This document shows, in pieces, positions 5,986 to 33,046 of a stretch of 33,046 bases of DNA. Source of the stretch: Myxococcota bacterium (GTDB lineage: Bacteria > Myxococcota_A > UBA9042 > DTJE01); contig JAGOKF010000030.1 of the NCBI GenBank assembly GCA_017994695.1, positions 7,404 to 40,449 of the forward strand, read 5' to 3'. Under the pieces are notes generated by a model. It searched no databases, was not told the DNA's origin, and saw nothing but the letters and a program-made list of their open reading frames with translations. Position 1 is the first letter of the stretch, and each line of letters begins with the position of its first letter. The position numbers and the translations under genes are program-made.

Positions 5986-7569
5986 TCAGTCGTTCCGCAG
6001 CCCCTCGGACGGGCTGGGACGGGCCACGGACAATGCCGGGTAGAGGGTCGCCACCAGCGCCGATCCCAGCGCCGCCAGCGCCACCAGTCCCACCTCCAGG
6101 CCCCGGACCTCCACCGGCAGGGTCCGGAGGTAGTACTCCGAGGGCAGGCGGATTCCCGCCACCCGGATGTAGGCGCAGGTGCCTAGCCCCAGGGCCAGTC
6201 CCGCCACCATGCCCACGGCGCCGATGCTCCCCCCGAGGGCCAGGAAGAGGTCCCGGATGCCCTGGTGCGTGGCCCCGAGGCTCCGGAGCACCGCCATGTC
6301 CCGGGACTTCTCCATCGCCACCAGCACCAGGGACCCGAAGATGTTGAACCCCGCCACCAGGATCACCAGACCCAGGACCAGGAACATCGCGACCTTCTCG
6401 ATCAGCAGCGCGCTGAACAGGGATCGATTGGTTTCCTGGACCGTCCGGACCTCCCCGCCTCCGTGGCGTTCCAGCGCTTCCCGGGCCACGGCGGCGATCC
6501 GGTCCACCGTCCGCAGGTCGGGAGTCACCACGGCCACCCGGTTCGGAGCCCCCAGCAGGAACAGGACCTCCGCCTCCCGGTCGTCCAGGTAGGCCGTGCG
6601 GAGGTCGTGTTCGTAGAGCCCGCTGGCGAAGGTCCCCGCCACCCGGAAGGTCCGGGTCCGGGGCCGCAGCCCCGCCGGTCCCACGTCCCCGTCGGGCACC
6701 ACCACCGTCACCTCGTCCCCGGCGCCCACCGACAGGCTCCGGGCCAGTTCCTCGCCGAGCAGGATCGCGGGCAGCACCCGTCCCCCGCGCTCCTCGGGGC
6801 CGCCGATCGGGGGCATCGCGCCGGCGGTCCCAGGGGGCTCCTCGTCGGCGGGACCGGCGACGTCGTCCGCCACCGGGGCGGCGACCGGCGGCAAGGCGCC
6901 GGGGTCCCGGCCCTTCCGGGGGATCCTCCGGAAGCCCATGTCCCGGTCGGGGATCAGGCGGAGGGGATCCCGGAGGACCCGCATCGCCTTCGGGTCGGTG
7001 TTGGGGGCCAGCCACCGGGCCTCCAGGATCCCGCCGGGAGGGAGGCCCAGCAGCACCATGCCCGGGCTCATGTTCACCGAGGAGACGATCATCGCCTCCC
7101 CCTCGACGTACGCCTCCACGACGGCATCCCGGGGCAGGCGGGACCGGAGGTCGGCCACCAGCCCGGCCACGCGGTCCGGGGCGTCCTCGTCCGCCACGGC
7201 GGTCCCGGGCTCCATCTTCACGCTGGGAGTCTGCCGGAGGATCTTGCCCTTCAGGTCCGACTCGAAGCCCCCCATCACGCTCAGGACCACGACCAGGGCC
7301 CAGACCCCGATGGCCGTGCTCACCATCGCGATGAAGTTCTGGGTGCTGACGGGGACCAGCCGGTGCCACCAGGAGGGCCGGTCCGCCCGGAATCCCGTCA
7401 GGATCCGCAGCGCCACCTGCAGCCGCCAGCCCGGAAGCCATCCCCGGCCGGTGACCGCCGCCAGTCCCCGGAGCATCCCCGTGACCACCGCCGCGACCAG
7501 CAGGATCGCCAGGCCGATCACCGCCAGCAACTGGATCACCGGCAGCAGCCAGGTCTGCAAGACCTCCAC
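5986..7569 (-). CDS. LolC/LolE-type lipoprotein-releasing permease, enlarged
   Basis: This inner-membrane permease partners with LolD. At 527 residues it is longer than the roughly 400-415 usual for LolC/E. An extra hydrophobic helix at residues 8-30 precedes the normal first helix (78-100, in the conserved VVLSVMGGFES context). The periplasmic domain holds a Pro/Ala/Asp-rich, probably disordered segment at about 215-265. Three C-terminal helices follow, with the conserved EKSRDMAVLRSLGAT loop and the ArgPro-Ser ending typical of FtsX-like permeases. The start is GTG with AGGAG upstream. Only one permease gene is present, so the complex may be a homodimer, as in bacteria with a single LolF-type protein. 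Confidence 0.85.
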   Translation of the reverse strand: MEVLQTWLLPVIQLLAVIGLAILLVAAVVTGMLRGLAAVTGRGWLPGWRLQVALRILTGFRADRPSWWHRLVPVSTQNFIAMVSTAIGVWALVVVLSVMGGFESDLKGKILRQTPSVKMEPGTAVADEDAPDRVAGLVADLRSRLPRDAVVEAYVEGEAMIVSSVNMSPGMVLLGLPPGGILEARWLAPNTDPKAMRVLRDPLRLIPDRDMGFRRIPRKGRDPGALPPVAAPVADDVAGPADEEPPGTAGAMPPIGGPEERGGRVLPAILLGEELARSLSVGAGDEVTVVVPDGDVGPAGLRPRTRTFRVAGTFASGLYEHDLRTAYLDDREAEVLFLLGAPNRVAVVTPDLRTVDRIAAVAREALERHGGGEVRTVQETNRSLFSALLIEKVAMFLVLGLVILVAGFNIFGSLVLVAMEKSRDMAVLRSLGATHQGIRDLFLALGGSIGAVGMVAGLALGLGTCAYIRVAGIRLPSEYYLRTLPVEVRGLEVGLVALAALGSALVATLYPALSVARPSPSEGLRND

Positions 7570-7596
7570 GGCCCGACTCCTGTCACGACCCCGGCG

Positions 7597-9126
7597 TCAC
7601 GACTCCGGCCGCATCAGCGGGAACAGGATGACGTCCCGGATGTTCTCCCGGCCGGTGAGCAGCATCACCAGCCGGTCGATGCCGATGCCCTCGCCGGCGG
7701 TCGGGGGAAGGCCGTAGGACAGCGCCCGGACGTAGTCCTCGTCGAACTCCATCGCCTCGGCGTCCCCACGGTCCTTCGCCGCCAACTGCGCCCGGAAGCG
7801 CTGCTCCTGGTCCTCGGGGTCGTTCAACTCGCTGAAGGCGTTGGCGATCTCGCTGCACCCCACGTAGAGTTCGAACCGGTCCACCAGGAAGGGGTCCGAG
7901 TCCTTCCTCCGGGACAGGGGCGAGACCGCCGCGGGGAAGTCCGTCACGAAGGTCGGCTGGTCCAACAGGGGCTCCACCTTCTCCTCGAAGGCCAGCATCC
8001 CGATCTCCAGCGCCAGGTCCCGGCCCCCTCCCGAAAGCCCCCCGGACTTCCGGACCACGGCCTCGAGGTCCGCCTCGGCGACCCCGCAGGCCTTCGCCGC
8101 CTGGAGGCTCCGGGCCGGGTCCGCCAGGGCATCGTCGTCGTAGCCGCAGTATTCCCGGAGGGCCTGGCAGACCGGCAGGCGCCGGAAGGGGGGCTCGAAA
8201 TCGATCGCGGTGCCCCGCCAGGAGGCCACGTATCCCCCCGTCAGGTCCCGGACGAGTCCCCGGAACAGTTCCTCGGTCAGTTCCATCAGGTCCAGGTAGG
8301 TCGCGAAGGCCTGGTAGAACTCGATCATCGTGAACTCGGGGTTGTGCTTGTGGCTGATGCCCTCGTTGCGGAAGTTGCGGTTGATTTCGTAGACCCGTTC
8401 GAACCCCCCCACCACCAGGCGCTTCAGGTAGAGCTCCGGCGCGATGCGAAGGTAGAGGTCCATGTCCAGGGCGTTGTGGTGGGTGCGGAACGGGCGGGCG
8501 TTCGCCCCTCCCAGCACCGGGTGCATCATCGGCGTCTCGACCTCCAGGTAGTCCCGCTGGTCCAGGAACCGCCGGATGTACTGGATGATCCGCGCGCGCG
8601 TGCGGAAGACCTCCCGGGACTCCTCGTTGACCAGCAGGTCCAGGTACCGCATCCGGTGGCGGGCCTCGACGTCCTTCAGGCCGTGCCACTTCTCGGGCAG
8701 CGGCCGCTGGGCCTTCGCCAGCACCCGGTATTCCCGGGCCAGCACGGTCAGTTCGCCGGTCCGGGTCCGGAACAGGGTGCCCCGGACCCCCACGATGTCC
8801 CCGATGTCGGTCAGGCGGAGGCGCTCGAAGGTGACCTCGTCCACCTGGTCCTTCTTCACGTAGGCCTGGAGGGTTCCGGACTGGTCCCGGATCCTCAGGA
8901 AGGCGGCCTTTCCGAAGGAGTTGACGGCCATCACCCGTCCCGCGATGGCAACGGCCGGCTCCCGGGCCTCGAGGGCCTCCCCGTCCAGGGCCTGGAACGG
9001 GGCGATGACCGGGGCGATCAGGCCGTCGATCCGGAAGTCGTTGGGATACCGGACGCCGTCGATCTCCTCCAGCCGGGCCTGCTTCGCCCGCCGCTGCCGG
9101 ATCAGTTCCTGCTCGGTGGTTTCCAT
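7597..9126 (-). CDS. lysS: Lysyl-tRNA synthetase, class II
   Basis: A 509-residue cytoplasmic enzyme that charges tRNA-Lys. An N-terminal OB-fold anticodon-binding domain lies at about 60-165. Class II motif 2 is in the FRNEGISHKHNPEFTMIEFYQA region, and motif 3 is GEGIGIDRLVMLLTGRENIRDVILFP near the C-terminus. Length and motifs are normal. It is the first gene of the cluster and lies 27 bases before lolC. A lysS-lol-bamA order is recurrent in deltaproteobacteria-like genomes as I know them. Confidence 0.96.
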   Translation of the reverse strand: METTEQELIRQRRAKQARLEEIDGVRYPNDFRIDGLIAPVIAPFQALDGEALEAREPAVAIAGRVMAVNSFGKAAFLRIRDQSGTLQAYVKKDQVDEVTFERLRLTDIGDIVGVRGTLFRTRTGELTVLAREYRVLAKAQRPLPEKWHGLKDVEARHRMRYLDLLVNEESREVFRTRARIIQYIRRFLDQRDYLEVETPMMHPVLGGANARPFRTHHNALDMDLYLRIAPELYLKRLVVGGFERVYEINRNFRNEGISHKHNPEFTMIEFYQAFATYLDLMELTEELFRGLVRDLTGGYVASWRGTAIDFEPPFRRLPVCQALREYCGYDDDALADPARSLQAAKACGVAEADLEAVVRKSGGLSGGGRDLALEIGMLAFEEKVEPLLDQPTFVTDFPAAVSPLSRRKDSDPFLVDRFELYVGCSEIANAFSELNDPEDQEQRFRAQLAAKDRGDAEAMEFDEDYVRALSYGLPPTAGEGIGIDRLVMLLTGRENIRDVILFPLMRPES

Positions 9127-9156
9127 CGGGCCTGTCCCCCGTTCTCGGGCCGCGCG

Positions 9157-9185
9157 AACCTACCGGATTTGGGGGGAGCCGTCAA
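9157..9185 (-). promoter_or_regulatory. Putative sigma-70 promoter of the lysS-apt operon
   Basis: On the minus strand TTGACG (9180-9185) and TAGGTT (9157-9162) are separated by 17 bases. The predicted start is near 9150, giving a leader of about 24 bases to lysS. It is the only good promoter match between the sigma factor gene and lysS, and gaps inside the cluster are 27 bases or less. Confidence 0.55.
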
Positions 9186-9247
9186 ACGCCCCGGGCCGCG
9201 CGGCAACGGGCGTTCTGCCGGGATCGGGGGACGCGGAAGGCGTGGGA

Positions 9248-10741
9248 TCAGAAGGACTCTTCGAGGTAGGAGGCCAGGTCCCGGGACACGGCGGGCCCCT
9301 TCAGCCGACCCAGGGCCTTCATCTCGATCTGCCGGACCCGTTCCCGGGTCAGCCCCACGGCCTCGCCGACCTCCTCCAGGGTGTGCTCCCGGGCGGTCCC
9401 GATCCCGTAGCGCAGGCGGATGATCGCCTCCTCCTTGGGCGTCAGTCCTGCCAGGAGCTTCCGGATGTTCTTCTTCAGGTCGGCCTCCTCGGCCTCCTGG
9501 AGGGGCTGGACGGCCTCGGTGTCCTCGACCACGTCCATCAACTGGGCGTCGTCCTCGCCGATGGGATGCTCCAGGCTCACGGTCCGCAGCATGGTCCGCT
9601 CGGCCCGTTCCACCTGGTCCATGGTGAACCCCGAGGCCTGGGCGACCTCCTCCCGGGTCGGGGGCCGCCCCAGGGACATCTGGAGCCGTGCCCGGGTCCG
9701 CTGGACCTTGGAGACGCACTCCACCAGGTGCAGGGGCACCCGGATCGTGCGGCCGTGCTCGGCCAGCGCCCGGGTGATGCTCTGGCGGATCCACCAGGTC
9801 GCGTAGGTGCTGAACTTGTGCCCGTACCGCCACTCGAAGCGGCTCACGGCCTTCATCAGTCCGATGTTGCCTTCCTGGATCAGGTCCAGCAAGGCCATGC
9901 CCCGGTTCATGTAGTGCTTCGCGATGCTGACCACCAGGCGCAGGTTGGCCCGGATCATCCGGGACCGGGCCTCGTTCACCTGCCGCTGGGCCTCCCGGAG
10001 GGTCGCCAGCGCCTCGTCCAGTTCCGCACCCTCGATCCCCAGCACGGTCCGGGTGGACCCGAGGGTCACGGACCCCACCAGCAGCCCCTCCTCCAGGCTC
10101 AGGGCCCCGAAGGCGTCCGAGTCCCAGGGCTCGGCCACCGGCCCGGCGTCCGGCGCCCGGAGGATTCGTTCCACCTGGCACCAGAGGCTGCGGATCACCA
10201 GCCGCACGATGCCGGCCCCGAACCGGAAGTCCCCGTAGGCGTCATGCAGCGCCCCGGCCAGCCAGGGCAGGTGGCGCGCCGGGTTCCGGGACCGGTTCGT
10301 CCACTGTCCCCACCGCTTCCCGATGCCCCGGATCTCCTCGACGAAGTGCTCCAGTTCCTGGGTCAGGGACGGGGTCCAGTCCTCGTGGCTCGAATCCTCC
10401 AGCGTGGCGACGTCGCTCATCGCCACCTCCCCCTCCAGCAGGCGCGAGGGGAAGGTCAGGAGGTGGTCCCGGGACAGGGGGATGCGGACCAGGGCCTCGA
10501 ACGTCCGCCGGTTGCCCTCCTCCATGGCGATGGCGAGGTCCCGTTCCTGTTCCCGGGTCAGCAGCGCCGTGTCGCCGACGCGGCTCAGGTAGGCCAGCAC
10601 CCCGTTGATCGCCGTGTCCTCCTCGGGGGGCAGGATCTCGTGGGCCAGGGGTTCGTCCAGCATGTCGGTGCACTCTCCCCAGGGATTCGCCGCGCCGACC
10701 CGCGATTCGTCCGGTCTCAGGGCTTTTCTTGTCGGGGCCAT
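9248..10741 (-). CDS. Primary-type RNA polymerase sigma-70 factor
   Basis: A 497-residue sigma factor. Region 1.2 lies at about 45-80, then a long segment with no similarity I recognise (about 85-240) occupies the position of the non-conserved region. Region 2 carries LDLIQEGNIGLMKAV and FSTYATWWIRQ, then come region 3 and a full region 4 with the helix-turn-helix LEEVGEAVGLTRERVRQIEMKAL. Region 1.1, usual in proteobacterial RpoD, is missing, and region 2.4/3 deviates (HLVECVSKV in place of the usual HMIETINKL). It could be the housekeeping sigma or a close group 2 paralogue such as RpoS/SigB types. The start is supported by CGGAGG upstream. A Met at 10663 is an alternative start. Confidence 0.85.
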   Translation of the reverse strand: MAPTRKALRPDESRVGAANPWGECTDMLDEPLAHEILPPEEDTAINGVLAYLSRVGDTALLTREQERDLAIAMEEGNRRTFEALVRIPLSRDHLLTFPSRLLEGEVAMSDVATLEDSSHEDWTPSLTQELEHFVEEIRGIGKRWGQWTNRSRNPARHLPWLAGALHDAYGDFRFGAGIVRLVIRSLWCQVERILRAPDAGPVAEPWDSDAFGALSLEEGLLVGSVTLGSTRTVLGIEGAELDEALATLREAQRQVNEARSRMIRANLRLVVSIAKHYMNRGMALLDLIQEGNIGLMKAVSRFEWRYGHKFSTYATWWIRQSITRALAEHGRTIRVPLHLVECVSKVQRTRARLQMSLGRPPTREEVAQASGFTMDQVERAERTMLRTVSLEHPIGEDDAQLMDVVEDTEAVQPLQEAEEADLKKNIRKLLAGLTPKEEAIIRLRYGIGTAREHTLEEVGEAVGLTRERVRQIEMKALGRLKGPAVSRDLASYLEESF

Positions 10742-10957
10742 GCGTCACCTCCGCTGGCGCCAACCTTCCGGGATGCAGGAATTGTGCCCCTGGAGGCCAT
10801 GCGGCCCGAAGACCCCGAAATGCCGCGGTTCCTCCGGTGTCCTGCCCCGAGCGCCCGGGGAAGCGGACCGGGGTCGGGACCCGGAACCCTGATCCAGATG
10901 TCATGGGGGGCGCAAGAAACGTCCCCCCTGTCGATTCCCGGGCGCAAGTCCCCAGGA

Positions 10958-11005
10958 AGACCACGGATTGTGCCATAGGTCCTGATCCCCTACCACATCT
11001 TGTGT
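10958..11005 (+). promoter_or_regulatory. Paired NrdR-box-like sites upstream of nrdJ
   Basis: Two 16-bp sites, 10958-10973 and 10990-11005, share the pattern ACCAC-N3-TTGTG and are offset by exactly 32 bp. The second matches about 12 of 16 positions of the NrdR box as I know it (acaCwAtATcTtGtgt); the first matches about 9. NrdR boxes are known to occur in pairs spaced about three helical turns apart at ribonucleotide reductase genes. The second site ends eight bases before the nrdJ -35 element, a fitting place for repression. Confidence 0.6.
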
Positions 11006-11012
11006 CTTTTTC

Positions 11013-11042
11013 TTGACAAGGGTCCCTCGACGGGTCTATCGT
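11013..11042 (+). promoter_or_regulatory. Sigma-70 promoter of nrdJ
   Basis: A perfect TTGACA (11013-11018) is followed after 18 bases by TATCGT (11037-11042), four of six matches. The start would be near 11049, giving a leader of about 90-135 bases. Confidence 0.6.
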
Positions 11043-11182
11043 CCAGATGGCAGGAACGCCGACTCCCGACAGCCGAGAGTTCGGGTCCGGCCCCCCGGGG
11101 TCGGGTGGAGTCGTTTTGTCGAGGTGGTCCCGGAGGAACCATGGGAAGGGCATCCGGGAAGGGAAAAACCGGGAGAGGACAG

Positions 11183-13981
11183 ATGAGCAGCGTGGTGCAG
11201 GAACTGTTCGGGGCGGCCCCCGTGGTGCAGCCCCCCGTCGCGACGATCGTCGAGGAACCGGTCGCCACCCCGGCGCCGGAGGCCCCCGCGAAGGAACCGG
11301 CGAAGGAGCCCGCGAAGGCCCCGGTCCGGAGGACGCTCCCGTTCCTCCGGCGGTTCACCGACGGGCAGACCGATCCCTACGACACCGTGACCTGGGCGGT
11401 GCGGAGCGCCGTGATCCAGGGCGAGGGCGGAAAGGACGTGTTCCGCCAGGACGGGGTGGAGTTCCCGGAGTTCTACAGCCAGACCGCGGTCAACGTCATC
11501 GCATCCAAGTACTTCCGCGGCCACATGGGAACGCCGGAACGGGAGCGTTCCCTCCGGCAGATGATCTCCCGGGTGGTGAAGACGCTGGCCCAGTGGGCCC
11601 GGGAGGACGGATACCTGGACGAGGAGGGGGCCCGGGCCTTCGAGGACGACCTGACCTGGCTCGTGCTGCACCAGTACGGCAGTTTCAACAGCCCGGTGTG
11701 GTTCAACGTGGGCGTCGAGCCCCATCCCCAGTGCTCGGCCTGCTTCATCAACTCCGTCGAGGACACGATGGAGTCCATCCTGGGCCTGGCCCGGACCGAG
11801 GGGATGCTGTTCAAGTTCGGGTCCGGGACCGGCACCAACTTCTCGCCGCTGCGCTCCCGGAGGGAGAAACTGCGGGGAGGGGGCGTCCCGTCGGGCCCCG
11901 TGTCCTTCATGAAGGGCTTCGACGCCTTCGCCGGCGTGATCAAGTCCGGCGGCAAGACCCGCCGGGCCGCCAAGATGGTCATCCTGAACGTCGATCACCC
12001 GGACATCCTGGAATTCGTGCAGTGCAAGGTGCGGGAGGAGCAGAAGGCCCTGGCCCTGATCCAGGCCGGATACAGCGGGGCCTTCGGCGGCGAGGCCTAC
12101 GAGTCGGTGTTCTTCCAGAACGCCAACAACAGCGTCCGGGTGACCGACGAGTTCATGCAGGCGGTGGAACGGGACGGTCTCTGGAAGACCCGGGCGGTCA
12201 CCACCGGCGAGGTGGTGGAGACCCTCCGGGCCCGGGAGGTGTTCCGCCAGATCTGCGAGGCGGCCTGGGCCTGCGGCGACCCGGGTCTCCAGTTCGACAC
12301 CCAGGTCAACGACTGGCACACGTGCCCCGCCAGCGGCCGGATCAACGCGTCGAATCCCTGCAGCGAGTTCATGTTCCTGGACGACTCGGCCTGCAACCTG
12401 GCCTCCCTGAACCTGATGAAGTTCGTCCGGGAGGACGGGGCCTTCGACACCGAGGCCTTCCGGGCGGCGGTGCGGACGTTCATCCTGGCCCAGGAGGTCA
12501 TCGTCAGCCGGTCCAACTATCCCACCGAGGCCATCGGCCGCAACAGCGAGCGGTTCCGGCCCCTCGGCCTGGGATACGCGAACCTGGGTGCCCTGCTGAT
12601 GCAGTGGGGGCTCCCATACGACGGGGACGCGGGACGCGCGATGGCGGCGACCATCACTGCCCTGATGACCGGGACCGCCTACGCGGCCTCGGCGTGGATC
12701 GCCGGGGTGAAGGGCCCCTTCGAGGCCTTCGAGAAGAACCGGGACGCGATGCTCCGGGTGATCCGAAAGCACCGGTCGGCCCTGGACTCCGTTCCCGAGC
12801 GCCTGGTTCCCCGGACCCTGATGGAGGAGGCCCGGAAGTCCTTCCAGGAGGCCTCGTCGCTGGGCGAGCGGAACGGCTACCGCAATGCCCAGGTGACCCT
12901 GCTGGCCCCCACCGGCACCATCGGGTTCATGATGGACTGCGACACGACCGGGATCGAGCCGGAACTGGCCATCGTGAAGTACAAGCACCTGGTCGGCGGC
13001 GGTCAGATCAAGATCGTCAACCAGTCCGTGCCCCGGGCGCTCCAGCGCCTGGGATACTCCCGGGAGGACGTCACCGCCATCGTGGAGTACCTGGAGCAGC
13101 ACGACACCATCGAGGGATCGCCCCTGCTCCGGGAGGAGCACCTTCCCGTCTTCGACTGCGCCTTCCGCCCGACCCGGGGCAAGCGGAGCATCTCCGTGGA
13201 CGGACACATCCGCATGATGGCCGCGGTCCAGCCGTTCCTGTCGGGGGCGATCAGCAAGACGGTGAACCTGCCGGCCGACGCGACGGTCGAGGACGTGGAG
13301 AAGGCCTACCGGGACGCATGGCGCCTGGGACTGAAGGCCGTGGCGATCTACCGGGACGGCAGCAAGTCGGCCCAGCCGGTCGTGCTGAAGAACGACGAGG
13401 GGCCGCGGAAGACTCCCCAGGGGGCGCCGGTTCCCCAGCGGCGGCGCCTGCCCGACGAGCGCGATTCCCTGACCCACAAGTTCAGCATCGCGGGACTGGA
13501 CGGCTACATCACGGTGGGGATGTACCAGGACGGGACCCCCGGGGAGATCTTCGTCACGATGGCGAAGCAGGGGAGCGTGATCAGCGGGCTGATGGACGCC
13601 TTCGCGACGGCCATCAGCATCGCCCTCCAGTACGGCGTGCCCCTGAAGGTGCTGGTGGACAAGTTCTCCCACCTCCGGTTCGAGCCGGCGGGGTACTCCT
13701 CGAACCCCCAGATCGGCTACGCGAAGTCGATCCTGGACTACATCTTCCGGTGGCTGGCGCTGAAGTTCCTGAAGCAGGAAGAGGGAGAGGCGGATGTCCG
13801 GGAGGAGGCAAGCCCGGACCTGGAGGCGAAGGAGGGCCTGACCCGTCCGACCCCCTTCCAGACGAGCATCTTCGAGAACCAGGAGGATGCCCCGCCCTGC
13901 AGCGTCTGCGGCACGGTGATGGTCCGCAACGGCGCCTGCTACAAGTGCGAGAACTGCGGCTCCACCTCGGGCTGCTCCTGA
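11183..13981 (+). CDS. nrdJ: Adenosylcobalamin-dependent ribonucleoside-diphosphate reductase (class II)
   Basis: About 932 residues; makes deoxynucleotides from ribonucleotides with a B12-generated thiyl radical, independent of oxygen. The signatures are NSPVWFNVG, CSACFINSVEDTMESI, the SGTGTNFSPLRS loop, the active-site NPCSE at residues 391-395, and a Cys-rich C-terminal tail (CSVCGTVMVRNGACYKCENCGS) that reloads reducing equivalents in this family. There is no ATP-cone domain. The N-terminus is a low-complexity linker with repeated AKEP. An in-frame Met at 11141 with GGAGG upstream is an equally possible start. No nrdA/B or nrdD genes lie nearby. Probable control is by the NrdR-like boxes upstream. 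Confidence 0.95.
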   Translation: MSSVVQELFGAAPVVQPPVATIVEEPVATPAPEAPAKEPAKEPAKAPVRRTLPFLRRFTDGQTDPYDTVTWAVRSAVIQGEGGKDVFRQDGVEFPEFYSQTAVNVIASKYFRGHMGTPERERSLRQMISRVVKTLAQWAREDGYLDEEGARAFEDDLTWLVLHQYGSFNSPVWFNVGVEPHPQCSACFINSVEDTMESILGLARTEGMLFKFGSGTGTNFSPLRSRREKLRGGGVPSGPVSFMKGFDAFAGVIKSGGKTRRAAKMVILNVDHPDILEFVQCKVREEQKALALIQAGYSGAFGGEAYESVFFQNANNSVRVTDEFMQAVERDGLWKTRAVTTGEVVETLRAREVFRQICEAAWACGDPGLQFDTQVNDWHTCPASGRINASNPCSEFMFLDDSACNLASLNLMKFVREDGAFDTEAFRAAVRTFILAQEVIVSRSNYPTEAIGRNSERFRPLGLGYANLGALLMQWGLPYDGDAGRAMAATITALMTGTAYAASAWIAGVKGPFEAFEKNRDAMLRVIRKHRSALDSVPERLVPRTLMEEARKSFQEASSLGERNGYRNAQVTLLAPTGTIGFMMDCDTTGIEPELAIVKYKHLVGGGQIKIVNQSVPRALQRLGYSREDVTAIVEYLEQHDTIEGSPLLREEHLPVFDCAFRPTRGKRSISVDGHIRMMAAVQPFLSGAISKTVNLPADATVEDVEKAYRDAWRLGLKAVAIYRDGSKSAQPVVLKNDEGPRKTPQGAPVPQRRRLPDERDSLTHKFSIAGLDGYITVGMYQDGTPGEIFVTMAKQGSVISGLMDAFATAISIALQYGVPLKVLVDKFSHLRFEPAGYSSNPQIGYAKSILDYIFRWLALKFLKQEEGEADVREEASPDLEAKEGLTRPTPFQTSIFENQEDAPPCSVCGTVMVRNGACYKCENCGSTSGCS

Positions 13982-22983: not shown

Positions 22984-23522
22984 GCCTTCACCTCGTCCAC
23001 CAGCCTGGCGACCAGGCGGTCCGAAACCGGGCGGTAGGACTGCTCGGCGAGGCGCTGCTCCACCAGGGAGAAGGTCCGCGCCAGCAGCGCATCCACCACC
23101 TCCGCCCGGGCCATCTTGGCCTCCTGGGAAATGCGGAACTCCGCGTCCTCCTCCAGTTTCTTCGCGACCCGGACCCCCTCGTGGACCAGTGCCTCCCGCT
23201 CGGCCTGACCCTGGCGGCGAAACTCCTCCATCAGGGCCCCGGCCTCCTCCTCGAAGTGCTGCAGGCGGGCCTCGGCATCCCGGAGACGCCGTTCCGCCTC
23301 CTCGAACAGGGCCCGGGCCTCGTCGATCTCCTGTCGCACCGTGTCGTGCCGCTGCCGGAGCATCCGCCGCAGCCGCGGCGTCACCAGGATGCCCAGCGGA
23401 ATGGCAAGGATCAGGAAGTCGACCAGGTAGACGTAGAAGTCCGTCCCGGGTCCCGTCCCGTCCCCGGAGGCGCGGGCGATGGCCGGGAACAGGACCAGGG
23501 CCAGCAGGGCGACTCTCCTCAT
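22980..23522 (-). CDS. atpF: F-type ATP synthase subunit b with signal-like N-terminus
   Basis: A 180-residue peripheral-stalk protein. Residues 1-18 resemble a signal sequence (ending ARAS). The membrane helix follows at about 29-48 (FYVYLVDFLILAIPLGILV), and the rest is a long charged coiled coil. A signal-like start is known in the b subunit of Geobacter-type operons. The ATG overlaps the previous stop (ATGA), with GGAGG just upstream, which rules out the long open frame further upstream. Confidence 0.88.
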   Translation of the reverse strand: MRRVALLALVLFPAIARASGDGTGPGTDFYVYLVDFLILAIPLGILVTPRLRRMLRQRHDTVRQEIDEARALFEEAERRLRDAEARLQHFEEEAGALMEEFRRQGQAEREALVHEGVRVAKKLEEDAEFRISQEAKMARAEVVDALLARTFSLVEQRLAEQSYRPVSDRLVARLVDEVKA

Positions 23523-23989
23523 GGGGCCTCCACCGACCGGACCTGCTTCTCCATCTCGTCGGCGAGCTCCGCGGCCTTCCGGTCCGCTTCCTGGAGCAGG
23601 CGGGCCTTCAGGACCCGGAGTTCCTCCAGTTCCTGCTCGACCCGCCGCTGGAGGCGGTCCCGCTCCCGGGCGATCGTCGCTTCCCGGAGCCGGGCCCCCT
23701 CCTCGGCCAAAGCCTTCCGTTCGGCCACCGCGGCCTGCCGGACCTCCGCCATCCGGTCCTCGATGCGCTGCAGGATCTCCCGCGCCTTCCGCTCGTTCTC
23801 CTGGGCCCGCTGCCTCATTCCGTGAGTGGACGCCGCCCGCCGTCGCAACCTGGCGACGTAGGGCCCGAAGAAGACCTGCGACAGCAGCAGGTAGAGCAGC
23901 AGGAAGACTCCCAGCTGGACGAAGTAGGTGGCATCGAGGTCCACCAGTCCCGCCGCGAGCGGTGCGGAGATGTCCGGTGACGGAACCAT
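23519..23989 (-). CDS. atpX: F-type ATP synthase subunit b' (second peripheral-stalk subunit)
   Basis: A 156-residue protein with one membrane helix (about residues 18-37, YFVQLGVFLLLYLLLSQVFF) and a long charged coiled coil. It is the first gene of the operon and pairs with the following b subunit to make a heterodimeric stalk. The ATG at 23989 is preferred because GAGGAGG lies just upstream. An earlier Met at 24025 lies within the predicted -10 box and so could not be on the mRNA. The name follows the Geobacter convention. Genes for subunits a and c are not in this window. Confidence 0.87.
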   Translation of the reverse strand: MVPSPDISAPLAAGLVDLDATYFVQLGVFLLLYLLLSQVFFGPYVARLRRRAASTHGMRQRAQENERKAREILQRIEDRMAEVRQAAVAERKALAEEGARLREATIARERDRLQRRVEQELEELRVLKARLLQEADRKAAELADEMEKQVRSVEAP

Positions 23990-24020
23990 TCCGGTCTCCT
24001 CCTCGCCGGATGGTCGGGGC

Positions 24021-24050
24021 TGCATACCATCCGCCTTCGGCGCGTGTCAA
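24021..24050 (-). promoter_or_regulatory. Sigma-70 promoter of the atp operon
   Basis: On the minus strand a perfect TTGACA (24045-24050) is followed after 18 bases by TATGCA (24021-24026). The start is expected near 24014, giving a 25-base leader before the atpX ATG at 23989. The 18-base spacing matches the nrdJ promoter. Confidence 0.6.
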
Positions 24051-24112
24051 GAGAAGGAACGGCACTTCCCGGGCGATTCCTCGTCCGGGGCGGGAACGGC
24101 CTCCGGCCCCCG

Positions 24113-24141
24113 TGGAACGGGCCCTCGATCCGTGCGATATT
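24113..24141 (+). promoter_or_regulatory. Weak candidate promoter of the VWA/MopE gene
   Basis: TGGAAC (24113-24118) and GATATT (24136-24141) are 17 bases apart. The -10 matches four of six positions and the -35 only three. It is the best match in the 140-bp gap divergent from the atp operon. Confidence 0.3.
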
Positions 24142-24189
24142 CGGAGGCGGCCCGAGCGCGGTCTGGGCGATGGAACTTCCGGAGGGATG

Positions 24190-26013
24190 ATGAACGGGAC
24201 CTGGAGGATCTGCTGCTTGACCCTGACGGGGCTGCTGGCCGGGATTCCGGCGGCGGCCCAGTCTCCCGAGTGCGCGTCGCCGAACATCCTGATCCTGCTG
24301 GACGTGTCCGGCAGCATGAAGGCCGCGACGAATCCCGCCGGGAAATACGCGGCGGCGGTCCCGGCCATCGACGACGTGGTGACCCAGTACCAGGACCGGA
24401 TCCGCTTCGGCCTGATGGTCTTTCCGGACCCGGCCCAGGGCTATTGCGGGGTCTCGACGAACCTGGTGGTGTCCCCGGACCTGGGGACCGCGGAGGCCAT
24501 CCGCAACTATCTGACCCTGGGTGCGCCGGGCTTCTTCGGGGGGCCCCTGGCGACCTTCGATACCCCGATGAAGCAGGCCCTGGAAGCCGTGGCCGGCCAG
24601 TCCGTGCTCCGGAATCCCGAACGGCGGTCCTACGTGCTGCTGATCACCGACGGGATGCAGGACTGCTGCCGGTTCGGGGACTACGACGGCGATCCCGACT
24701 GCCTCCCCTCCAGCACGGTCCTGGACCCTGCCGAGGTGGTGGAGAACCGGGCCGACCTGGTCCAGGTCATCGGCACGCTGGCGGGCCTCGGCATCCAGGT
24801 CTTCGTGGTGGGCTTCGGCAGCGGCGTGGATGCCCTGACCCTCAACGAGATGGCCGTCACCGCGGGGACGGGGCTGTACGGGTGCGACCCCTCCGAACCG
24901 GACCCGACGAAGGGGCGGCAGTGCTACTACCGGGTGGACGAATCGCAGGGTTCCGGCGACGCCACGGCGGCCCTGAAGGCGGCACTGGGGGCGGTGGTCC
25001 AGATCGTGGGGATCGAGGTGTGCGACGGGATCGACAACGATTGCGACGGGGCGACGGACGAGGGCTTCTCCCCGGGGATTCCCTGCGACGGCCCCGACGA
25101 CGACCTCTGCGCCGACGGGTGGGTCGCCTGCACCTGGGACGGCCGGGCCGAATGCCGCGAGATCACGCCGGCGAACCGGAGGGAGGTCTGCGACGGGATC
25201 GACAACGACTGCGACGGGGCGACGGATGAGGGGTACCCGGTCCGGGAGCCCTGCGACGGGGACGACGAGGACCGGTGCCGGGAGGGCTTCTACGCATGCT
25301 CGGGCGACGGCCTGGGCGTCGTCTGCGACGAGCGGGGCGCCGGCCACGTGGAAACCTGCAACGGCCGGGACGACGACTGCGACGGGGTCGTGGACGAGGA
25401 CTCCGACGTGGTCTGCGATTCGCCCTGCGGGGTCAGCCTCCGGAGGTGCGTGGACGGAGCGCTGGGGGACTGCGAGGCCCCTCGGCCCCTTCCCGAGGAC
25501 CTCTGCGGCAACGGGCGCGACGACGACTGCGACGGGGTGACGGACGAGGACTGGGAACACGCCTGCCAGACGGCCTGCGGGGAGGGGATCGAATCGTGCA
25601 GCGGCGGCGTCTGGACGCCCTGCACCGCGCCGGCGCCCCGGGCCGAGTCGTGCAACCTGCTGGACGACAACTGCGACGGGGCCGTCGATGACGGGGACCT
25701 CTGCGGGGAGGGGGCCGAGTGCTTCTGCGGCGCCTGCCAGCAACCCTGTCCGCCCGGCGGCGTCTGCCCCGACGGGCGGGCGTGCGTCCAGGGCTTCTGC
25801 CTGGACGACCGGTGCCCCGCCGGGATGGAGTGCCGCGACCGGGCCTGCGCCGAACGGATTCCGGTCGATCCGGGTCCGGGACCCATGGTGGTCCAGGGGG
25901 GCGGGGGTTGCGGCTGTCGCAGCGGCGGTCTCCCGGCCCTGCCCGGGGGGGTGATCCTGGGCGTCCTGGCCTGGGCCGGAGCCTTCCTGGCCGCCCGTCG
26001 CCGGCGGGCCTGA
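24190..26013 (+). CDS. Secreted VWA-domain protein with five MopE-type repeats and a MYXO-CTERM-like tail
   Basis: A 607-residue exported protein. A signal peptide (residues 1 to about 22, ending AAA) leads into a von Willebrand A domain (about 30-270) with an intact metal site DVSGS at 38-42 and a later ITDG. Then come five Cys/Asp motifs of MopE/putative metal-binding type, starting near residues 278, 334, 390, 439 and 488 (CDGIDNDCDGATDEG and variants), set among Cys-paired modules. The tail is Cys574-Gly-Cys576, a hydrophobic stretch (about 583-600) and an Arg cluster, the layout of MYXO-CTERM surface-sorting signals. The ATG at 24190 has GGAGG at proper spacing; the one at 24187 is too close. 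The role is probably surface-anchored, metal-dependent binding; the partner is unknown. Confidence 0.87.
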   Translation: MNGTWRICCLTLTGLLAGIPAAAQSPECASPNILILLDVSGSMKAATNPAGKYAAAVPAIDDVVTQYQDRIRFGLMVFPDPAQGYCGVSTNLVVSPDLGTAEAIRNYLTLGAPGFFGGPLATFDTPMKQALEAVAGQSVLRNPERRSYVLLITDGMQDCCRFGDYDGDPDCLPSSTVLDPAEVVENRADLVQVIGTLAGLGIQVFVVGFGSGVDALTLNEMAVTAGTGLYGCDPSEPDPTKGRQCYYRVDESQGSGDATAALKAALGAVVQIVGIEVCDGIDNDCDGATDEGFSPGIPCDGPDDDLCADGWVACTWDGRAECREITPANRREVCDGIDNDCDGATDEGYPVREPCDGDDEDRCREGFYACSGDGLGVVCDERGAGHVETCNGRDDDCDGVVDEDSDVVCDSPCGVSLRRCVDGALGDCEAPRPLPEDLCGNGRDDDCDGVTDEDWEHACQTACGEGIESCSGGVWTPCTAPAPRAESCNLLDDNCDGAVDDGDLCGEGAECFCGACQQPCPPGGVCPDGRACVQGFCLDDRCPAGMECRDRACAERIPVDPGPGPMVVQGGGGCGCRSGGLPALPGGVILGVLAWAGAFLAARRRRA

Positions 26014-30987: not shown

Positions 30988-32595
30988 ATGGGTCAGGAAC
31001 GGGGGGGGACTGTGAAAGAGGAACTGGCGGGACTGGGCGTGACGGGCGGGGCCACCGAATTTTCCGGTTCTGGGATGGAGCGGGGGAGGCCTGACCCGAC
31101 CCACAGGGGAAGGTCCTTCGAGAAAATCGAGGTCCCCGAAGAGGAAAGGCTTCCCTTCCGCTTCGACAGGCACTCGATCGACGAATTCTCGGATCTTGCG
31201 GTCACCTGCCAGATGGAAACCTCGACGGCAAGCGCTCCCGTCCACATCCAGTTGAAGGACCTTTCCAGTTCCGGACTGTCCTTCCACGTGGATGACGCGT
31301 CGAAGTGGCAACAGGGACAGACCATCGCCCGCCTCCGGATCGGTTTCGACGACTGGATCGCCTACGACGGACCTGCCGTGGTGAGCTCCATCCGCCAGGT
31401 GGAGATCGGGGCGGTGCTCGGGATCCAGCTGACGGACTACCTGTTGAACATCGAGGAACTGATCCGGATGCGCGACGTCAAGCGTGCCCACGCCAACCAC
31501 GCGGAGCGAATCCGGTCGTTCGTGGGGCGCACGGCGGTCGTGGGGTGCCATGAATACCGTGCGAGGATTGCGGATTTCCTGCTGTTCCTGCGGGCCGCCA
31601 GGGAGGAGATGGGAGCGCTGGAACAGGAGGTCGGGTGGGAGGATATCCACGGCAGGAATCCGAATGCGGCACGGGACTGCCTGTTCAGGCACCTCCTGGA
31701 GGGATTCGTGCGGCAATGGAACGATTGGATCATCCATCTGAACGAACTCTTCCGGGCGGACCCGGCGACCCGGGACGCCTCCGTAGAGAACTTCTCCAGG
31801 GCCCTCCTGCAGCCCTACCTTCTGGAAGCGCCGGTGCTGGAGAGGGCCTTTCGCAAGCCTCTCGGATATCCGGGAGACTACAGGGTCATGATCTACATCT
31901 ACGACAACGATTTCGAAGGGGCGACACTGTTCGGAAAGGCCGTTCACAAGGCGGCGGTGATGACTGCGGCCTCAAAGGCGGTCAGAGGGAGGAAGGACCT
32001 GCTGAAGGCGATCATGCAGGAGAAATTCCAGAGCCTGAGGACCCGGCGGACGCCGATGCGCATCCTGTCGGTGGCCGCCGGTCCCGCCAGGGAATTGAAG
32101 GAGTTCCTCGAGGGCCTGTCTCCCGAGGACCCGCTGGAGATCGTTCTGTTCGAGCAGGACAAGCAGGCTCTTGCCCATTCGAACAGGGAACTGAGAAGTC
32201 TGATTGCCCGGAGGAGAATGTCGAGGGTGCGCCTGTTCTCCTTGAGGGACACGATCACGAACCTGCTCGGGGACAGCGACCTCCTTCGCCCGACGGCTCC
32301 CTATGACCTCGTCCTGGCATCCGGGCTCTACGACTACCTGAAGCCCCACAACGCATCCCGGCTGACCCGGAAACTCTTCGACCTGCTGGACCTGGGAGGC
32401 GACCTGCTGATCGGGAACTTCGCCCACAGCAATACGACCCGGTGGATCATGGAAAACCAGTTGGCCTGGTACCTCCAGCACCGTACCGAGGAGGAGATTC
32501 TTGCCTTCGCGGACCTTTGCGACCCGGGCAGGCAACTTGAGGTGATCTCGGAACCGAACGGGGTGAATCTCTTCTTGAGGGCCCGTCGCGTGTAG
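30988..32595 (+). CDS. PilZ domain - SAM-dependent methyltransferase fusion protein
   Basis: About 535 residues. After a polar N-terminus comes a PilZ-like domain (about 48-150) with RLPFR at 54-58 and DLSSSG at 91-96. These fit the RxxxR and D/NxSxxG cyclic-di-GMP contacts, though the gap between them is long. A helical middle region (about 155-285) leads to GYPGDYRVMIYIYDNDFEG (293-311). That motif is close to the GYAGDY-type motif I associate with proteins annotated as 3-hydroxypalmitate methyl ester synthesis (PhcB-like). A class I methyltransferase fold follows, with motif I LSVAAGPARE (360-369), the acidic LFEQD (387-391) and LASGLYDYL (443-451). Alternative starts are GTG 31012 (with a G-rich site upstream) and ATG 31075. 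The next gene starts one base after the stop. The substrate is not known. Confidence 0.78.
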   Translation: MGQERGGTVKEELAGLGVTGGATEFSGSGMERGRPDPTHRGRSFEKIEVPEEERLPFRFDRHSIDEFSDLAVTCQMETSTASAPVHIQLKDLSSSGLSFHVDDASKWQQGQTIARLRIGFDDWIAYDGPAVVSSIRQVEIGAVLGIQLTDYLLNIEELIRMRDVKRAHANHAERIRSFVGRTAVVGCHEYRARIADFLLFLRAAREEMGALEQEVGWEDIHGRNPNAARDCLFRHLLEGFVRQWNDWIIHLNELFRADPATRDASVENFSRALLQPYLLEAPVLERAFRKPLGYPGDYRVMIYIYDNDFEGATLFGKAVHKAAVMTAASKAVRGRKDLLKAIMQEKFQSLRTRRTPMRILSVAAGPARELKEFLEGLSPEDPLEIVLFEQDKQALAHSNRELRSLIARRRMSRVRLFSLRDTITNLLGDSDLLRPTAPYDLVLASGLYDYLKPHNASRLTRKLFDLLDLGGDLLIGNFAHSNTTRWIMENQLAWYLQHRTEEEILAFADLCDPGRQLEVISEPNGVNLFLRARRV

Positions 32596-32596
32596 T

Positions 32597-33046
32597 ATGA
32601 CAGACCAGATCGAGAGCGCCGATTTCAGGCAGCGGATCGAGGAGACCTGGCTTTCCTGGTTGCAGAGACGCAACCAGGCGGGCGGGCGCCTCGTATTCCT
32701 GATGACACTCATCCTCTATCCAATCTTCGGATTCCTCGACTGGGTGACCGCTCCCGAGGAACTGGTGGAAATCCTGTGGGTAATCCGGGCTTCCGTAATC
32801 ATTCTGGCCGCCATTCTCTACCTGCTGCTGGTCCGGCGATCGACCTCGAAGCATTTCACCCTGCTGACTTCCCTGCTGACGCTGGTGACGGGCTTCGGCA
32901 TCATCGCGATGGTCGTGCTTCTCGGAGGGTATGAACATCCCTACTATGCGGGCATCAACCTGGTCATGATCGGTACCGGTCTATTGTTCCTGTGGCCGCC
33001 CAAGGTATCGGTCGTGGTCTATGGATCCATTGTGGTAGGATACTTC
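32597..33046 (+). CDS. Multi-pass membrane sensor-like protein, N-terminal part (cut by right edge)
   Basis: The first 150 residues are visible and open to the edge. After a charged 30-residue head come hydrophobic segments at about 31-50, 59-79, 87-110, 118-135 and 137 onward. A GGYEHPYYAGINLVMIG stretch (110-126) lies between the third and fourth. Five or more closely spaced helices with short loops resemble the membrane sensor modules (MASE-like, 7TM) placed in front of histidine kinases or nucleotide cyclases. The output domain would lie outside the window. The start codon follows the upstream stop by one base, so the two genes are almost certainly co-translated. This would fit a sensor for, or partner of, the methyltransferase product, but that is inference. 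Confidence 0.65.
   Translation, partial: MTDQIESADFRQRIEETWLSWLQRRNQAGGRLVFLMTLILYPIFGFLDWVTAPEELVEILWVIRASVIILAAILYLLLVRRSTSKHFTLLTSLLTLVTGFGIIAMVVLLGGYEHPYYAGINLVMIGTGLLFLWPPKVSVVVYGSIVVGYF

Follow-up and report, generated by a model that had tools for sequence, protein, structure and literature searches.

A PilZ-methyltransferase and its adjoining sensor kinase as a candidate Phc-like lipid-signalling pair with c-di-GMP input in a Myxococcota bacterium

In our study, a window of 33,046 nucleotides (the whole stretch of DNA that was analysed) from a Myxococcota bacterium was found to end in two adjoining genes, one encoding a PilZ domain fused to a class I methyltransferase and the other the beginning of a membrane sensor histidine kinase. 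Judging from sequence comparison and structural modelling, we consider it moderately probable that this pair is a Phc-like lipid methyl-ester signalling system, the synthase of which would take c-di-GMP as an input. In Ralstonia, PhcB is a methyltransferase making 3-hydroxy fatty-acid methyl esters and the adjacent PhcS is a membrane histidine kinase sensing them. No description of a PilZ-methyltransferase fusion, or of a PhcB connected with PilZ or c-di-GMP, was found in the open-licence literature. The features lie in the window as follows, with residues numbered from the ATG at 30988.

31012 to 32592, + strand: PilZ-methyltransferase gene (start noted earlier, ATG 30988; likely start, GTG 31012)
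31135 to 31452, + strand: PilZ domain, residues ~50-155 (PF07238 in homologues, AF2 model, Foldseek)
31159 to 31170, + strand: conserved RxxR (R58, R61), both arginines in 45/45 homologues
31258 to 31275, + strand: (D/N)xSxxG motif, DLSSSG, residues 91-96 (D/N 45/45, S 41/45, G 45/45)
31450 to 31821, + strand: helical linker, residues ~155-278 (AF2 model)
31762 to 32592, + strand: class I SAM methyltransferase, residues ~259-535 (PF12147 over cut-off, fold and profile matches)
31855 to 31881, + strand: KPLGYPGDY motif, residues 290-298, nearly invariant
32059 to 32094, + strand: SAM-binding motif I region, ILSVAAGPARE (G365, E369 invariant)
32597 to 33046, + strand: sensor histidine kinase gene, 5' end (membrane sensor module), truncated by the contig end

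The open reading frame of the synthase extends from ATG 30988 to codon 535 (32592), its stop occupies 32593-32595 and the following ATG stands at 32597, one base beyond. GTG 31012 is probably the start in use, because the orthologue of the sister species (same-genus genome G001; 81% identical) starts at the equivalent ATG (MKEEL); the protein would then comprise 527 amino acids, with all domains unaffected. From the N-terminus onward, a PilZ domain is followed by a helical linker, and the protein ends in a class I methyltransferase. The fusion of PilZ with a GYPGDY-bearing methyltransferase, earlier proposed by a sequence-only reading, was borne out by the PF12147 match, the PilZ model and homologue matches, and KPLGYPGDY at 290-298. 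An NCBIfam search of the window protein returned no family, and a full-protein profile recovered relatives in 74 of the 379 Myxococcota genomes sampled, belonging to 49 of 236 genera.

In the window protein alone, PilZ was matched with an E-value of 0.0096, under the Pfam cut-off, and the domain was therefore tested in three other ways (homologues, model and structure matches). PF07238 was matched by 42 of the 45 homologous N-termini (best 6.7e-8), one homologue (L042) lying above the Pfam cut-off. The AlphaFold2 model of the domain has a pLDDT of 92.6, and its best Foldseek matches among solved structures are YcgR, BcsA, MotI, Alg44 and other PilZ proteins, several of them with c-di-GMP. Taken together, these tests show that the PilZ domain of the window protein is real, with the modelled beta-barrel fold. 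R58, R61, D/N91 and G96 are present in 45/45 homologues and S93 in 41/45, at a mean column identity of only 32%. Profile alignment has shown that the family-wide arginine pair is RxxR and lies several residues upstream of the usual RxxxR site; in the window protein a literal RxxxR occurs as well, at R54-R58 (R54LPFR58). The modelled fold and the conserved residues are compatible with predicted c-di-GMP binding. With 14 GGDEF matches over cut-off and 14 further PilZ matches in its genome, this organism is likely to possess c-di-GMP signalling. The fold and the conserved residues would fit the earlier suggestion that c-di-GMP may gate the signal; across the family, the arginine motif departs from the textbook RxxxR.

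The linker is predicted to form helices at residues 155-182, 188-214, 227-257 and 264-278 in the AF2 model. The catalytic domain matched PF12147 above cut-off (E 7.7e-9), and its fold matches are class I methyltransferases, 3ocj being the best. Solved relatives found by profile search include 3ocj and CheR, a carboxyl methyltransferase, the CheR match being weak; the CheR family (catalytic and N-terminal) was absent from the window protein even at E 10. In the homologue alignment (A1), K290, P291, G293, Y294, G296 and D297 are invariant. Rhizobium, Pantoea, Deinococcus and some large myxobacterial genomes also have standalone methyltransferases with the same motif; lacking a sensor partner, these were left aside. 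On a Rhizobium plasmid (L077, 5541-8756), a related methyltransferase is placed divergently beside a GGDEF-phosphodiesterase gene.

The kinase reading frame runs off at position 33046, the last base of the contig. Four hydrophobic segments precede this end, in agreement with the multi-pass membrane protein that had been predicted one base downstream of the synthase. The gene continues in another contig of the same genome (C58:2-2422; L143), where the frame is open for 807 residues; the start of C58 overlaps the final 219 bases of the window at 97.7%, its protein is 90.8% identical to the sister-species kinase and C58 is syntenic with the sister-species contig over 9.5 kb. The C64-C58 join is an assembly inference, the junction itself being unsequenced. 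The complete kinase, as seen in the sister species, consists of a multi-helix sensor, HisKA, ATPase, receiver and a second HisKA/ATPase. An output domain beyond the membrane segments, which the sequence-only reading had left to be looked for, is thus represented by a membrane hybrid histidine kinase with a receiver, both on C58 and in the sister species.

The pairing of synthase and sensor is kept across many Myxococcota genera. Judged by coordinates, a same-strand sensor module lies at most 1.5 kb away from 45 of the 57 PilZ-type methyltransferases of the Myxococcota sample. The remaining 12 comprise four at contig ends, three with the kinase upstream, three with two intervening genes and two with no sensor nearby (G259:C139, L131; G374:C113, L115). 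The last of these, L115, lies near a PAF-acetylhydrolase/PETase-like hydrolase gene. In nearly all PilZ-type loci read, the hybrid kinase directly adjoins the methyltransferase, and in relatives most pairs are flanked by a separate receiver-kinase gene of ~400 aa with the PhcR layout.

The two partners also diverge together. Kimura-corrected distances of the methyltransferase and the sensor module are correlated with r 0.84, and those of the sensor and the kinase of its own chain with 0.72; in the main clade the values are 0.79 vs 0.48. On taxon resampling, methyltransferase-sensor values exceeded methyltransferase-kinase values in 99.6% of draws overall and 97.8% in the main clade, and in 95% in the smaller clade, where the margin is weak. 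Such co-divergence is the pattern expected of a synthase and its receptor, and direct protein contact would also give it. Long proteins of 856-1098 aa with a C-terminal methyltransferase and the same sensor kinase type directly downstream were seen at L147 (2423-5608), L154 (7890-10457) and L153 (2722-6015), with weak PilZ in the first two; these are a possible second synthase class.

In the Phc system of Ralstonia solanacearum, too, a methyltransferase gene precedes those of a membrane histidine kinase and of receiver-kinase modules (PMC8578825, PMC6989110, PMC10653808). Its homology to the pair was judged through the one phc-like operon found in the plasmid collection, that of a Paraburkholderia graminis plasmid, which is phc-like by layout alone. 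The gene order there is methyltransferase (468 aa), kinase (445), receiver (134) and receiver protein (344). The window protein and the Paraburkholderia methyltransferase were aligned over their full length by profiles (436 columns, E 2.7e-52), the PilZ region included, and a match to the Paraburkholderia kinase was likewise obtained for the sensor module (E 6.1e-15). The Paraburkholderia motif reads KPLGYAGDY, and its N-terminal region, which has lost the PilZ motif residues, aligns less confidently (88%) with the PilZ profile. A membrane histidine kinase in the place of PhcS adjoins the synthase in the window organism's own genome and in the sister species, and the PhcR-type receiver with a C-terminal kinase is found as the receiver and second HisKA/ATPase inside the window organism's kinase. 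Unlike in Phc, the synthase bears intact PilZ motif residues, kinase, receiver and second kinase are fused in one protein, and no PhcQ or PhcA equivalent was noticed adjoining the pair on reading the neighbourhood. The host is a member of Myxococcota, whereas the phc cluster has been reported as confined, for the most part, to Betaproteobacteria (PMC10653808).

Mutation positions in strain GMI1000 have been published for phcB, phcS and phcQ (PMC6989110), from which a distance of 1417 bases between the starts of phcB and phcS was computed. PhcB would accordingly have at most about 472 aa, enough for a long stretch ahead of its catalytic domain. The adaptive PhcB mutation R22C affects signal synthesis (PMC6989110), and the region outside the methyltransferase domain that holds it may be a decayed PilZ domain.

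Lipid genes accompany some of these operons. In three genomes (G127, G207 and G301) the order is PilZ-methyltransferase, CMAS, MMPL exporter and sensor kinase (L126, 815-8380; L159, 3-5497; L116, 154-7636), CMAS being of the cyclopropane fatty acid synthase family and MMPL a lipid exporter. Among the operons examined, no more than three have this insertion, and the window organism's pair lacks it. In the Paraburkholderia operon, a cyclopropane-fatty-acyl-phospholipid synthase gene lies ~1 kb upstream. These neighbours favour a lipid of some kind as the product. We agree with the earlier reading that the fatty-acid genes of the window are not evidence; the thiolase gene is ~13 kb off and was left unused. 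Elsewhere in the window, the reading frame at 23479-26013, of which the first ~240 codons are probably non-coding, encodes a putative secreted protein of the von Willebrand type in which CNGIDNDCDG-like motifs recur. The proposal of a Phc-like synthase-sensor unit remains a candidate, strengthened by the adjacent hybrid kinase, the conserved pairing, the co-divergence, the Paraburkholderia alignments and CMAS/MMPL in three relatives.

From sequences and models, we infer the following course of events. The methyltransferase would transfer a methyl group from SAM to a fatty-acyl carboxylate, the substrate being probably a hydroxy fatty acid, and the resulting methyl ester would be diffusible. 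The adjoining membrane sensor would detect this ester and drive the hybrid kinase, which with its HisKA/ATPase, receiver and second HisKA/ATPase would be the counterpart of PhcS fused with a PhcR-like module. The PilZ domain of the synthase would bind c-di-GMP and tune catalysis, upward or downward, via the helical linker. Signal output would thereby depend on cell density as well as on lifestyle state.

The modules are exchanged among relatives. The sensor module is joined to a SpoIIE phosphatase in L132, to an adenylate/guanylate cyclase in L137, L149 and L152, and to HisKA-ATPase-receiver-HD-GYP in L150, where the HD-GYP end of the sensor kinase (6830-9574) links the sensor to c-di-GMP breakdown. 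The methyltransferases of L137, L141 and L142 carry a cNMP-binding domain instead of PilZ. In L137 the cNMP-binding-methyltransferase (6610-8067) adjoins a sensor-adenylate cyclase (8241-11201), and in L152 (6194-9052) sensor, cyclase, cNMP-binding and methyltransferase-like regions occur on one polypeptide; G225:C87 and G178:C15 also carry such cAMP-type versions. No cyclase neighbour was found at the L141 and L142 loci.

It is conceivable, though unlikely in our estimate, that the synthase-sensor pair holds and that its PilZ domain is structural, serving dimerisation or membrane docking with no response to c-di-GMP. In the Paraburkholderia relative, a PilZ-like barrel persists although the arginines and (D/N)xSxxG are missing, and L132 has also lost both, which indicates that the PilZ domain can exist without ligand binding; the departure of RxxR from the textbook RxxxR points the same way. 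On the other hand, the four positions kept in 45/45 divergent homologues despite low overall identity, and the c-di-GMP complexes among the best structure matches, argue for a binding role, and the cNMP-binding domain that occupies the N-terminal slot in three relatives points to second-messenger input. A different possibility, which we regard as distinctly improbable, is that a lipid of the membrane or outer membrane is the target of modification by the pair, with the kinase as an envelope monitor and no cell-to-cell signal. CMAS and MMPL are also typical of envelope lipid pathways; the kinase partner, the receiver-kinase gene and the phc-like layout, however, are signalling features, and in other loci the sensor module is coupled to SpoIIE phosphatase, adenylate cyclase and HD-GYP outputs.

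The least probable of the readings considered is a CheR-like adaptation, in which the methyltransferase would methylate glutamates of the sensor kinase and set its sensitivity under c-di-GMP control. It is consistent with the weak sequence relation to CheR and with the co-divergence, which direct contact would equally produce, and it has a precedent in MapZ-CheR1 of Pseudomonas aeruginosa, where a PilZ protein gives c-di-GMP control over a carboxyl methyltransferase (PMC6370697). However, the methyltransferase co-diverges with the membrane module rather than with the cytoplasmic kinase domains, in which CheR-type sites are to be expected. Intervening CMAS and MMPL genes would be unexpected on this reading, and the window protein resembles a phcB-like synthase over its full length and has no CheR family match. 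MapZ-CheR1 is also a precedent for the preferred Phc-like reading, in which a class I carboxyl methyltransferase would likewise come under c-di-GMP control through PilZ; there, the PilZ protein is separate and the enzyme is a chemoreceptor methyltransferase, whereas here PilZ is part of the enzyme, which belongs to another family and has another partner.

In the DSF/Rpf system (RpfF-RpfC-RpfG), a fatty-acid signal synthase likewise adjoins a hybrid membrane kinase and is linked to c-di-GMP. RpfF is a crotonase-fold enzyme and c-di-GMP is an output through RpfG, whereas the synthase fold is different in the present pair and c-di-GMP would be an input at the synthase; the relative L150 also carries HD-GYP after its sensor kinase.

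The timing of quorum signals is usually explained by density and transcription. If the proposed Phc-like system is correct, a c-di-GMP sensor built into the synthase would couple the making of the signal directly to the switch between motile and sessile life, and Phc-type signalling, reported mainly from Betaproteobacteria, would be extended to a phylum known for social behaviour. Further, we put forward tentatively, at somewhat less than an even chance, that the lipid circuits of Myxococcota form a modular family in which the second-messenger input of the synthase is matched to its circuit, PilZ being paired with a sensor of the histidine-kinase type and a cNMP-binding domain with an adenylate-cyclase sensor, in some genomes as a single polypeptide. 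In such a family, signal production would be set by the intracellular second-messenger state.
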